This document shows positions 5,830 through 9,438 of a DNA stretch of 64,000 bases, piece by piece. The notes under the pieces are model-generated. The model was not told the origin of the DNA and did not search any database. It saw only the letters and a program-made list of their open reading frames with translations. The stretch covers positions 62,001 through 126,000 of the forward strand of contig NZ_JAULRU010000577.1 of the NCBI RefSeq assembly GCF_030518155.1. The letters run 5' to 3'. Both the position numbers and the translations under genes were made by a program. Position 1 is the stretch's first letter. Each line of letters begins with the position of its first letter. The stretch comes from Gilvimarinus gilvus. GTDB lineage: Bacteria; Pseudomonadota; Gammaproteobacteria; Pseudomonadales; Cellvibrionaceae.

Positions 5830-7245
5830 TTAACGTGCGCAAGCTTTTCCGCGCAATAAAGAAAAAATAACAGCGAGAGCGACAAAAGACATCGAGAGCT
5901 CTAGCGCATGGAGAAAGGTTGCGAGTATGGGTTCTGCCAATGCCCCGGTAAGAGGCCTGTCACCAATAAGTGAATAGACCAGTAAATTGACCAAACTCAT
6001 TCCCACTAGATTGCCGCTTACCCGCGCTAAATTTAGTGTTGCGGAGGCGACGCCGGTCTCAGAGGGATGAGCCGCCTGCATAACCGCGAGGTTATTTGGG
6101 CTCGAAAACAAGCCAAACCCCACCCCCACCAAGCCTAACGCAACACTGATGTAAAACCCCGTGGTACTTAGCTGAAGCTGATGCAGCAAAAAAAATCCGG
6201 CCAAGGTTAAACCGCAGCCAACAGATGACAAGATTCGGGCCGGAAAAAAATCGGCCAATTTGCCGGCAAAGGGCGCGACAACGGCCATTGCCAGTGCTTG
6301 ACTGAGCATGATTTGGCCAGCGTCAGCGGCGCTCAAGCCAAGCACATATTGCAAATAAAGACTCAGCAGAAACCCCAAGGGGTAACTGGAAGCGTACATA
6401 AACAGCGCAGCGGCAAGAGACATCGAGAATAGCCGTGACTCGCTGAACATTTGCACGCGAATCAATGGAGCCTTTGAATTGAGCTGCCCCCAGACAAAGC
6501 CTGCAAACAACAGACATGAAGCGCAAAGCGTGAAAAAACCAACCGGGCTTGGCAAGCTGGTAAAACCAAAAACTAATGTGATGGCCCAAGTCGCCAGCAA
6601 CAGTGCGCCACGCCAATCAAAGCGCTCGCCTTTGGCATTGCGCCACTCTCCTTTGACATAGAAAAAAGACAGGACTAAAACGATGGAGACCAAAGGTAAA
6701 GGCAGCAGAAAAACAAATCGCCAGCCCAGATAATGTGTGACCCACCCCCCGAGCGCGGGAGCCAGAGTAAGCCCTAAATATACACAGGCAGCGTTTAGCC
6801 CCAGCGGCAGGCCACGCCGATGCACGGGAAAAACCGAAATCAAAATAGCCATGCTGGTGGCAAAGATCATGGCCGCCCCCATGCCCTGCATGAATCTCAT
6901 CGCCAACAGCCACCACATACCGGACGCGAAATAAGCGCTAATACCCGCAAGCGCGTTAATCACAATTCCCAGCTGAAACACTCTCTTGCGACCCCAGTTA
7001 TCCGCGAGCTTACCCGCTGGCAACATACAGATAATATTGGCGACCAATACGGCGGTGGGGACCCAACTGACGAGAATGCCGCTGGCTGACAGCTCCTGAG
7101 CCAACGCCGGAATCGCCACATTGACCGATGCCATACCTAAAGGGGCAATAAATGCGCCCAAACACACCATAATTAGGGCAGGCCATTGTGGCGCGACTTC
7201 ACTGTTGTTTACTGCTGCGATCGAGAGCCCCCGGATGAAATGCAC
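5830..7245 (-). CDS. MFS drug/metabolite exporter, 14-TM type (471 aa)
   Basis: Hydrophobic helices run through the whole protein. Motif A appears after TM2 (GKLADNWGRKRVFQLG) and motif C-like glycines in LGLTLAPALGGWV, the pattern of the DHA2 (EmrB/QacA) branch of drug:proton antiporters in the inner membrane. Substrate cannot be told. The only plausible start before TM1 is GTG at 7245; it has no ribosome site and abuts a long perfect hairpin on its 5' side, so translation initiation or leader read-through may be controlled. No membrane-fusion partner is adjacent. Confidence 0.8.
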   Translation of the reverse strand: MHFIRGLSIAAVNNSEVAPQWPALIMVCLGAFIAPLGMASVNVAIPALAQELSASGILVSWVPTAVLVANIICMLPAGKLADNWGRKRVFQLGIVINALAGISAYFASGMWWLLAMRFMQGMGAAMIFATSMAILISVFPVHRRGLPLGLNAACVYLGLTLAPALGGWVTHYLGWRFVFLLPLPLVSIVLVLSFFYVKGEWRNAKGERFDWRGALLLATWAITLVFGFTSLPSPVGFFTLCASCLLFAGFVWGQLNSKAPLIRVQMFSESRLFSMSLAAALFMYASSYPLGFLLSLYLQYVLGLSAADAGQIMLSQALAMAVVAPFAGKLADFFPARILSSVGCGLTLAGFFLLHQLQLSTTGFYISVALGLVGVGFGLFSSPNNLAVMQAAHPSETGVASATLNLARVSGNLVGMSLVNLLVYSLIGDRPLTGALAEPILATFLHALELSMSFVALAVIFSLLRGKACAR

Positions 7246-7246
7246 G

Positions 7247-7296
7247 ACAATAAAAAGCCGACACCCCTGACATCAAAGGCGTCGGCTTTTTATTGT
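7247..7296 (-). terminator. Perfect 16-bp hairpin directly before the MFS gene
   Basis: ACAATAAAAAGCCGAC and its exact complement GTCGGCTTTTTATTGT enclose an 18-nt loop. T runs on both strands make it a good bidirectional terminator. It ends two bases before the MFS start codon, so it could stop transcripts coming from the pom/sRNA side or act as an attenuator. Confidence 0.7.
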
Positions 7297-7422
7297 AAGA
7301 ATTGAAGCGCTATTTAATCACATTCACACATATTTGCGGACAGTCGGACGTATTCTCGCCATAAAAATCGGACACATGACTCAACACCTGTGACATCAAA
7401 ATGCCCATAATCTATGCCTAGA

Positions 7423-7545
7423 AAAGAAAAACCCCACAACAAGGGGGCTTGTTATGGGGTTTTGCAGGATGGAACCCAACCTTGGGCTCTCTAGCGGCGA
7501 GATCCGTCTATTCCTTGCCTCACGTCCTTATGTTTCGTGATCCTT
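7423..7545 (-). ncRNA. Putative CsrA/RsmA-sequestering small RNA (CsrB/RsmY type)
   Basis: No protein frame fits this interval, yet it has all parts of a small RNA gene on the minus strand. There is a CATAAT -10 element at 7557-7552, and transcription would start near 7545. Four GGA motifs lie in the first ~43 nt (7543-7541, 7527-7525, 7514-7512, 7505-7503), three as AAGGA and one as CGGA; one lies in the loop of a CACG/CGTG stem. A small CCCAA/TTGGG hairpin follows, then a strong terminator. A GacA-type box lies ~65 bp upstream. These are the features of RsmY/RsmZ/CsrB RNAs, which titrate the translational regulator CsrA. Family assignment is inference; length ~120 nt fits RsmY/Z. Confidence 0.65.
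7428..7463 (-). terminator. Rho-independent terminator of the small RNA
   Basis: Two 16-nt arms, with one mismatch, enclose a 4-nt loop: AAAACCCCACAACAAG and CTTGTTATGGGGTTTT on the plus strand. Read on the minus strand it ends in TTTTTCTTTTC, a proper U tract; the plus-strand tail is much weaker, which fixes the direction. Confidence 0.8.
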
Positions 7546-7601
7546 GCGCCCATTATGAGCGAGGATGAGCGTCAAAAATAGTGGCATTTGTCACAAGTTT
7601 T

Positions 7602-7619
7602 TGTAAGAGATGTCGCACA
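7602..7619 (-). promoter_or_regulatory. GacA/UvrY-type upstream activating site
   Basis: The plus strand reads TGTAAG-N6-CGCACA, that is TGTGCG-N6-CTTACA toward the small RNA. The known GacA site is TGTAAG-N6-CTTACA: one half is perfect and the other matches 4 of 6. Its centre is ~65 bp before the predicted small-RNA start, the spacing seen at rsmY/rsmZ promoters. Confidence 0.6.
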
Positions 7620-7678: not shown

Positions 7679-8659
7679 CTAGAATACTTCTTCCGGCTCC
7701 AGATCAAACAGGTACTGAGGCTCCACGTCGAGTTTGCGGATAATGTCGTCGCCTTCGGATTTAAGCAGCTCCATGTCCTCAGGTGCCAGATCGCCCTGCA
7801 ACCCCTGCCGAATGACAATTTCAACCCGACGGTTACGCGCGCGGTTAGACGCACTATCGTTAGGCGCCAAGGGTCTTACATCGGCAAAACCCGAAACTTC
7901 AAAGCGTTTAGGTACCAGATAACCGCCGCGCATAAGCTGTGAGGCAACAGAGGCTGCCCGCATGGCCGACAGGTCCCAGTTGGAGCGAAACTGCGCCGAA
8001 CGGATCGGAATATTATCGGTATGACCCTGCACCTCAATTCGCCCTGGCTTTAACATCAAGACCGCTCTAATCTCATCGATCACATCATAGTAATCAGCGG
8101 CGAGCCTGGCCGAGCCAGACTCAAACGAACCTTTCTCGCGAATCCGAATGATAATTTGCCGACCTTCCGTTTCTATTTCCAATTCGCCGTTGCTAATACG
8201 CTCTTCCAGCTTGCCGGCCAATTCCGCCGCGTCCTGCTGAGTTTGTTCAATCAGGCCTTCAATAATCTTCTGTAGCCGGTCTTTGGCGCCGTCATCCATG
8301 TCCGGTTCACCGCGCTCGATGTCGTATTCTTGCGCATCGCGCACCTCCAGACTCATTTGGGTAATGTCCTGAGTGCGTTGAAAAATTTCGGTAATCGGCG
8401 TTGGATCGGGCTTACCCGGACTAAACTCCTGAGCGATGATGCTGGTGCCCTTGGGAACCTCCGTGACGTTGAGCTTGGCCTGCACACCGAATGCCTGCGC
8501 CAAAGACCCTGCCAAACGCCGAAATTTCATAGCGTCCATTTCTGAAAAAGAAAGCAGCAATACAAAGAAACACATGAGCAGCGACATTAAATCGCCAAAG
8601 GTGGCAAGCCAGGCAGGTAGACCGGGTTCACATTCGCATTCGTTTTCTTCTTCGTCCAT
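7679..8659 (-). CDS. pomB: Sodium-type flagellar stator protein PomB/MotB (326 aa)
   Basis: A short cytoplasmic tail rich in E and C leads to one membrane helix (GLPAWLATFGDLMSLLMCFF) carrying the ion-binding aspartate at position 23, the equivalent of PomB Asp24. The periplasmic OmpA-like domain has IEVQGHTDNIPI and NRARNRRVEI, which bind peptidoglycan. The sequence around the helix resembles Vibrio PomB more than E. coli MotB, suggesting Na+ drive. It lies 14 bp after pomA in one operon. ATG with GGAG upstream. Confidence 0.9.
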   Translation of the reverse strand: MDEEENECECEPGLPAWLATFGDLMSLLMCFFVLLLSFSEMDAMKFRRLAGSLAQAFGVQAKLNVTEVPKGTSIIAQEFSPGKPDPTPITEIFQRTQDITQMSLEVRDAQEYDIERGEPDMDDGAKDRLQKIIEGLIEQTQQDAAELAGKLEERISNGELEIETEGRQIIIRIREKGSFESGSARLAADYYDVIDEIRAVLMLKPGRIEVQGHTDNIPIRSAQFRSNWDLSAMRAASVASQLMRGGYLVPKRFEVSGFADVRPLAPNDSASNRARNRRVEIVIRQGLQGDLAPEDMELLKSEGDDIIRKLDVEPQYLFDLEPEEVF

Positions 8660-8673
8660 CTTCGCCTACTCCC

Positions 8674-9438
8674 CTACCCGGCCGTATCGGCCACTTCGCG
8701 CTTACGCTCGGGTAAGTAGGTGCGCAAAATAGTGTCAATCACCCGGGGGTTCTGGCCATTTTGGATGGCGAGTAAACCGTCAATGATCATACTTTTAATC
8801 AGATACTCTTCCCCTGCGCGCAATTTGAGCTTATCGGCAATGGGCAGCGCAATAGCATTGGCAATCATTGCGCCGTAGAGTGTGGTCAACAGCGCAACCG
8901 CCATCGCCGGGCCAATTGCTTTGGGGTCGTCCATATTCGCCAGCATAGCCACTAGCCCAATCAAGGTGCCGATCATACCCATCGCTGGGGCAACGTCGCC
9001 GATCGCGGCAAATATAGAAGAGCCACTGGTGTGGCGTTTTTCGGCCAAAGAGCGGTCTTTGGACAGCATGGTACGCACCACATCCGGGTCGTGACCATCC
9101 ACCAATAATTGAATGCCTTTTTGCATAAACCCATTGGTGACTTCTTTGCCTTCGAGTGACAGCAGCCCCCCTTTGCGGGCAGCATCGGCCAGATCGACGA
9201 TCTCTTCAATCATATCCAGCGGATCATCCGATTTATTGACAAAGCTTTTGCCCGCAACCTTAAACGCGCTCAAGAATTGGCTCAACCCATACTTCGCCAT
9301 GACAGCGAACACAGTGCCACCGACCACAATGACTAGCGATGGGGCGTTGACGAACATACCAAGCTCGCCCGACATAAACATTGAGGCGACAATCAGGCCC
9401 AAAGCCCCCAATAGCCCAATCAGTGTTGCTAAATCCAC
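8674..9438 (-). CDS. pomA: Flagellar stator protein PomA/MotA (254 aa)
   Basis: Four membrane segments are visible: residues ~4-21, ~30-48, ~150-170 and ~182-202. The conserved cytoplasmic loop contains RSLAEKRHTSGSSIFAAIGD, and GMIGTLIGLVAML forms TM3. The length matches PomA (253 residues) and is shorter than E. coli MotA (295). Together with PomB it forms the 5:2 torque-generating ion channel in the inner membrane. The start is GTG at 9438 with AAGGAG upstream. No flagellar structural genes are in the window, as usual for isolated pomAB loci. Confidence 0.92.
   Translation of the reverse strand: MDLATLIGLLGALGLIVASMFMSGELGMFVNAPSLVIVVGGTVFAVMAKYGLSQFLSAFKVAGKSFVNKSDDPLDMIEEIVDLADAARKGGLLSLEGKEVTNGFMQKGIQLLVDGHDPDVVRTMLSKDRSLAEKRHTSGSSIFAAIGDVAPAMGMIGTLIGLVAMLANMDDPKAIGPAMAVALLTTLYGAMIANAIALPIADKLKLRAGEEYLIKSMIIDGLLAIQNGQNPRVIDTILRTYLPERKREVADTAG

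Follow-up and report, generated by a model that had tools for sequence, protein, structure and literature searches.

Downstream of pomB in Gilvimarinus gilvus, on the minus strand at 7619-7421 of the 64-kb stretch of DNA that we analyzed (the window), lies what is very probably the gene of a GacA-activated, CsrA-sequestering small RNA (sRNA) of about 120 nt. Those features of GacA-activated CsrA sponges that a sequence can reveal, namely a box at a fixed spacing, GGA motifs, a terminator and partner genes, all appear to be present. The anatomy of the gene, its conservation, the fixed spacing of its promoter and the presence of candidate partner genes were directly observed, and we judge it from its sequence to be a conserved, unannotated sRNA gene whose kind is known, while the member itself and its place are new.

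Anatomy of the sRNA gene

A sequence-only reading of this DNA had proposed a GacA-type palindrome, a -10 element, four GGA motifs and a U-tailed terminator on the minus strand, and the sequence together with a terminator scan confirmed these parts. The features are as follows.

7619-7602, minus: GacA-type palindrome TGTGCGACATCTCTTACA, with 10 of 12 matches to TGTAAGN6CTTACA
7577-7592, minus: conserved linker element GACAAATGCCACTATT between the GacA box and the -10 element (G-N7-C-NN-CT)
7557-7552, minus: -10 element CATAAT, read from the sequence
7424-7546, minus: predicted sRNA of about 120 nt, both ends inferred and the start placed about 7 nt past the -10 element
7543-7541, minus: GGA motif 1 at the 5' end of the sRNA, read from the sequence
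7520-7540, minus: stem-loop 1, UCACG...CGUGA, from minimum free energy (MFE) folds, with GGA motif 2 in its loop
7527-7525, minus: GGA motif 2, in the loop of predicted stem-loop 1
7503-7514, minus: sRNA core AAGGAATAGACGGA with GGA motifs 3 (7514-7512) and 4 (7505-7503)
7472-7489, minus: stem-loop 2, GAGCCCA-AGGT-TGGGTTC, whose loop holds GGA in many other genera and is degenerate here (AAGGTT)
7465-7470, minus: ATCCTG ahead of the terminator, complementary to a GGA core
7421-7463, minus: intrinsic terminator, a 16-pair stem (7463-7428) with a T-rich tail
7679-8659, minus: pomB (MotB_plug and OmpA domains), its stop 59 nt before the start of the GacA box
8674-9438, minus: pomA (NF006527 PomA, 416.8 bits against a cutoff of 341)

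The order along the sRNA is a 5' GGA, a hairpin with GGA in its loop, the two-GGA core, a second hairpin, ATCCTG and the terminator, and the four GGA motifs span 41 nt (7543 to 7503). We infer transcription, GacA binding, CsrA binding and a regulon along the following lines. Phosphorylated GacA, bound to the palindrome some 66 bp ahead of the start, would switch on transcription from the CATAAT promoter, and the strong 7463-7428 terminator would end the sRNA. The sRNA would bind CsrA dimers through its four GGA motifs, one of which sits in a hairpin loop, and this sequestration would release the mRNAs that CsrA targets. The sequence-only reading further suggested that such an RNA could link motility, c-di-GMP and the use of polysaccharides through a single switch.

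The folding z-score of the sRNA was -3.96 with the terminator and -0.99 without it; the body alone folded no better than shuffled sequences in the window, and body-only folding was not significant in three relatives either (z-scores of -1.92, 0.00 and 0.64). The proposal that one GGA lies in a stem-loop was borne out by the MFE folds, in which motif 2, one of the window's four GGA motifs, is looped on a weak stem (3 bp by a strict count; the MFE fold gives 5 bp around an 11-nt loop). A GGA-loop hairpin 1 of at least 4 bp was found in 21 of 30 relatives, compared with a mean of 10.2 and a maximum of 17 in 200 shuffles, and it was built from 24 different stems among the 30 sequences. Stem-loop 2 had a mean stem of 5.12 bp in 50 loci (shuffle mean 4.25, maximum 4.6), with the motif chosen inside the terminator in some rows. 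GGA motifs averaged 4.78 in the first 95 nt vs. 2.71 in dinucleotide shuffles (maximum 3.0), an excess that is partly circular because the models used to find the loci contain GGA. The ATCCTG element was predicted to pair with GGA motif 3 in one fold and with motif 1 in another.

A near-perfect hairpin (AATAAAAAGCCGAC...GTCGGCTTTTTATT) was also seen at 7251-7300 of the window, just before the start of the MFS gene. Weak Rfam matches of the Thr_leader type at 7211-7317 were set aside as a separate hairpin, not the sRNA.

Conservation in the genus and the family

The sRNA was found directly after pomB in all eight sampled Gilvimarinus genomes, and BLASTN detected the region in the other seven of them; in one of these (G003) only the box was scored (E 0.01), and the sRNA was read from the sequence. 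The box, the -10 element, the GGA motifs and the terminator were kept in 8/8 genomes, the distance from the box to the -10 element was identical in every locus, and at least four GGA followed it in each. In the eight-sequence genus alignment, five terminator pairs had changed on both sides with pairing kept, and the core with GGA motifs 3 and 4 was near-invariant in both the genus and the family alignments. Two genomes, G002 and G005, carried an sRNA about 70 nt longer, with nine and seven GGA, respectively, an eighth GGA counted in G005 being excluded as it falls beyond the terminator. The sequence-only reading had looked to relatives for a copy beside pomB and had staked itself on the conservation of the GGA motifs and the box; both were conserved in all eight genomes, and box and sRNA recurred across the family.

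For the family, a model (R1) was built from the eight genus sequences with the promoter left out, and at E<=1 it had matches in 44 of the 100 family genomes sampled. Thirty loci were followed up, 22 of them outside the genus, where 36 genomes had been matched, and a GacA-like box of at least 9/12 stood within 150 nt upstream of each of the 22. A second model (R2), built from these 30 loci, had matches at E<=0.01 in 53 of 100 family genomes, spread over 20 of 32 genera, 30 of the 53 being its own builders. Outside the building set, a box of at least 9/12 was found upstream of 22 of 23 R2 matches, the remaining one scoring 8/12, which brings the total to 44 of 45 non-genus loci examined. The GacA box lies outside both models, the promoter being no part of them, and random 150-nt stretches of the same loci had such a box in 101 of 4400 cases (159 of 5208 in a looser sampling). 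RNAalifold gave a structure of only six pairs for the 30-row alignment; therefore, R2 is mostly a sequence profile. Alignment A3 was made without an antisense match on L070 (22.3 bits), and two rows (L098 and L099) had their ends adjusted by hand.

The E-values of both models are rough. R2 had no match in 47 of 100 family genomes, reflecting either absence or insensitivity. Among the 44 genomes matched by R1, 34 had an R2 match at the same place, four (G011, G012, G104 and G105) had one at a different place, and six (G062, G077, G079, G098, G107 and G114) had none, suggesting that about 10 of the R1 matches may be false. In the sample of the order, R2 matched 9 of 293 genomes, seven in this family and two in another; the latter two (G216 and G262) had no box of at least 9/12, were read as the end of a GroEL gene with GGM repeats, and were rejected as false positives. 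In one locus of G011 (L133:2701-3032, minus strand) two R2 matches stood in tandem, a clear GacA box being present only at 2701-2841, the match transcribed second; the other, lower-scoring match, whose box reached no more than 7/12, was left out of the count.

The promoter linker was compared in 50 box-anchored loci, which are related and hence not independent. Counted from the start of the box, G at +27 was found in 48 of 50 loci, C at +35 in 50 of 50, and C at +38 and T at +39 in 47 of 50 each, with the -10 element at about +62 to +67. CTATC occurred in the linker of five of the eight RsmY promoters that we read, about 1 nt off the CTATT seen here, and the conserved linker may be shared with RsmY promoters. 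A study is said to have dealt with a linker in the rsm promoters of Pseudomonas fluorescens. Near-identical small ORFs with GacA-like boxes directly upstream were observed at two places in G013 (L009 and L036), possibly of prophage origin.

Gene neighbourhood and alternative readings

In 36 of the 50 loci pomB precedes the sRNA on the same strand, with a gap of 2-739 nt in 35 and of 2269 nt in one. In the remaining 14 no pomB was present within the fetched flank of 1.5-2.7 kb, the box and the sRNA still being there, and an ORF read as a polyprenyl (farnesyl-type) synthase was nearby in four of the six such loci inspected. The PilZ domain was detected in both tested genes lying between pomB and the box in other genera (L115:1964-2524 and L121:2948-3526). 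This pilZ gene is gone from that place in the genus of the window. The order pomAB-pilZ-RNA may be the older one, judging by these arrangements, with pilZ perhaps lost from this place in Gilvimarinus.

Among the best 80 pomB loci of more distant groups, 10 matched R2 at E<=1, and a scan for a box plus GGA flagged nine of these 10, missing L154 (22.4 bits). The scan also flagged L169 (box 10/12, four GGA, no R2 match). Marinomonas and Marinobacterium loci among the 80 had neither an R2 match nor a box with GGA, and an Amphritea locus (L216) had a 9/12 box, one GGA and no R2 match.

This neighbourhood bears on whether the stretch could mainly serve the pomAB operon as its 3' UTR and terminator, with pomAB transcripts running through it, so that the GGA-rich RNA would act as, or be processed from, an mRNA tail and the GacA box would be a second input. 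The pomB stop lies only 3, 6, 13, 16, 17, 17, 22 and 59 nt from the box in the genus and 2, 10 and 10 nt in the three loci of genus g20 (which includes Marinimicrobium agarilyticum); thus, there is little room for another terminator, and the terminator scan found no minus-strand site between pomB and the box in the window. However, 578-739 nt and an intervening gene separate pomB from the box in 23 of the 36 pomB-linked loci, and the loci without an adjacent pomB keep both box and sRNA; the sRNA is thus independent of pomB. We regard the mRNA-tail reading as unlikely, and it could hold together with the sponge reading. In a combined form that we put forward tentatively and hold to be rather doubtful, the sRNA of Gilvimarinus and g20 would have turned into the stator operon's 3' UTR, fed by both GacA and pomAB transcription, so that making stators would lower free CsrA. 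If true, such a two-source sponge would couple motor building to the Gac/Csr switch.

That the sRNA acts mainly by base-pairing with mRNAs through ATCCTG, rather than by titrating CsrA, seems improbable to us. The element is present in 47 of 50 loci and would be complementary to AGGA-containing, Shine-Dalgarno-like sequences, but it also pairs with the sRNA's own GGA cores in the predicted folds, and a hallmark of CsrA sponges is the presence of several GGA motifs behind a GacA box. A chance collection of ordinary motifs beside the pomB terminator would at first sight be favored by how common GGA clusters are (14 overlapping ones in the window, 10 on the plus and four on the minus strand) and by a generic sigma-70 scan of the window, which did not report the sRNA promoter, its two sites lying elsewhere. 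Against chance stand the fixed distance from box to -10 element in 8/8 genus loci and the boxes ahead of 44 of the 45 non-genus model matches that were examined. A GacA box of at least 10/12 with TGT and ACA ends, which as a palindrome can be read on both strands, occurs at two places in the window, and only that at 7619 is followed by four GGA within 43 nt; the combination turned up two times when both strands of 100 dinucleotide-shuffled versions of the whole 64 kb were scanned. We consider the probability of a chance collection to be negligible. The CsrA-sequestering sRNA under GacA control is the reading that we retain below.

Partner genes and comparison with known RNAs

The genome encodes CsrA (86.9 bits), in a gene that follows an ORF read as aspartate kinase. 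A GacA-like regulator of the UvrY/SirA/GacA type adjoins uvrC and scored 256.2 bits with NF007018 vs. 140 for the next family, below the NCBIfam equivalog cutoff of 280. The BarA sensor domain PF09984, sought in the genome as a marker of GacS, was not found, and the full-length BarA model was used in its place. The best of its 69 matches was a BarA-like hybrid kinase (HAMP-HisKA-HATPase-REC-Hpt) that covers positions 1-913 of 920 and scored 747.8 against an equivalog cutoff of 890.

The genome holds five sites of the form TGTNNGANATNTCNNACA, compared with one for the reversed control. Behind one of the other sites a second GacA-box RNA was recognized at about 8535-8896 of L145, on the minus strand of another contig (C346), with a similar stretch in G005 (L033). 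The 340 nt examined of this CsrB-like RNA contain 14 GGA, and by reading it ends in a GC hairpin and a T run; scanned through L031, it had no Rfam match. A ppnN-like gene of the same strand stops about 23 nt before its box, and thus both GacA-box RNAs come directly after a gene. The csrB gene of E. coli is three genes away from ppnN. The sRNA of the window would be the short partner of this longer RNA. Two further contigs, C809 and C823 (L103 and L104), each terminate in a roughly 1.8-kb repeat whose two copies are 94.6% alike and near whose edge a GacA-type box is followed by four GGA, possibly, by its sequence, a third and duplicated GacA-linked element. A 63-nt stretch in G002 (L032) is similar to this repeat.

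Rfam scans with the whole library, at gathering level and at E<=10, gave no relevant match to the sRNA, and CsrB, CsrC, RsmX and RsmZ were not among its matches even at E<=10. The RsmY model (RF00195) exceeded its cutoff in none of the 100 family genomes, whereas it did so in 12 of 293 order genomes, all of one other family, presumably Pseudomonadaceae, which served as a positive control. Weak RsmY matches at E<=10 in 88 of 100 family genomes were rejected as evidence of membership, none being over the cutoff; many among the matches listed are confined to the model's 3' end, and the single one in this genome sits on another contig. The earlier naming of a CsrB/RsmY-type RNA thus stands for the functional kind and fails for the curated family, because the named Rfam models do not match. 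Likewise, the proposal of a CsrA-titrating RNA gene is supported by sequence, conservation and partner genes, and membership in an Rfam family is the part that did not hold.

Marine gammaproteobacteria outside the classical models are also reported to carry Csr-type RNAs, among them homologues of CsrB/CsrC in Marinomonas mediterranea (PMC8523701) and, in Alteromonas macleodii, Aln1a-c, located between Te101_04650 and Te101_04655 (PMC5864184). In the parts of these two papers available to us they are not placed beside pomB, and they are likened to the present sRNA by description only. Further Csr RNAs are described in Pseudoalteromonas (PMC11882849, seen in part). GacS, GacA and CsrA homologues are noted in the accessible part of a report on Teredinibacter turnerae, a shipworm symbiont (PMC2699552) and probably a relative of the present host; we found no report of an RNA partner for them in the open-licence literature. 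The matches listed from that literature likewise contained no report of the present sRNA, and an earlier prediction is possible. Kulkarni is said to have published a prediction paper in 2006. Through this sRNA the Gac/Csr switch of Cellvibrionaceae can be approached from a defined sequence; its loci could seed an Rfam entry, and both the conserved linker and the ATCCTG tail lend themselves to testing.

CsrB of E. coli (RF00018) is under control of the UvrY (GacA) type and carries many GGA motifs. At 369 nt it is far longer than the sRNA of about 120 nt, and a longer, CsrB-like RNA exists separately in this genome. RsmY of Pseudomonas is likewise about 120 nt long (121 model positions), with a GacA palindrome upstream and several GGA motifs. 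The 3' block of the window's sRNA, CTGCAAAACCCC, is identical in two of eight RsmY loci and similar in the rest, and the best R2 match in each of the eight falls on RsmY, with scores so weak (20.2 to 11.0 bits) that common descent is possible only. Taken together, these comparisons suggest that the sRNA works like RsmY while standing outside the Rfam RsmY family.
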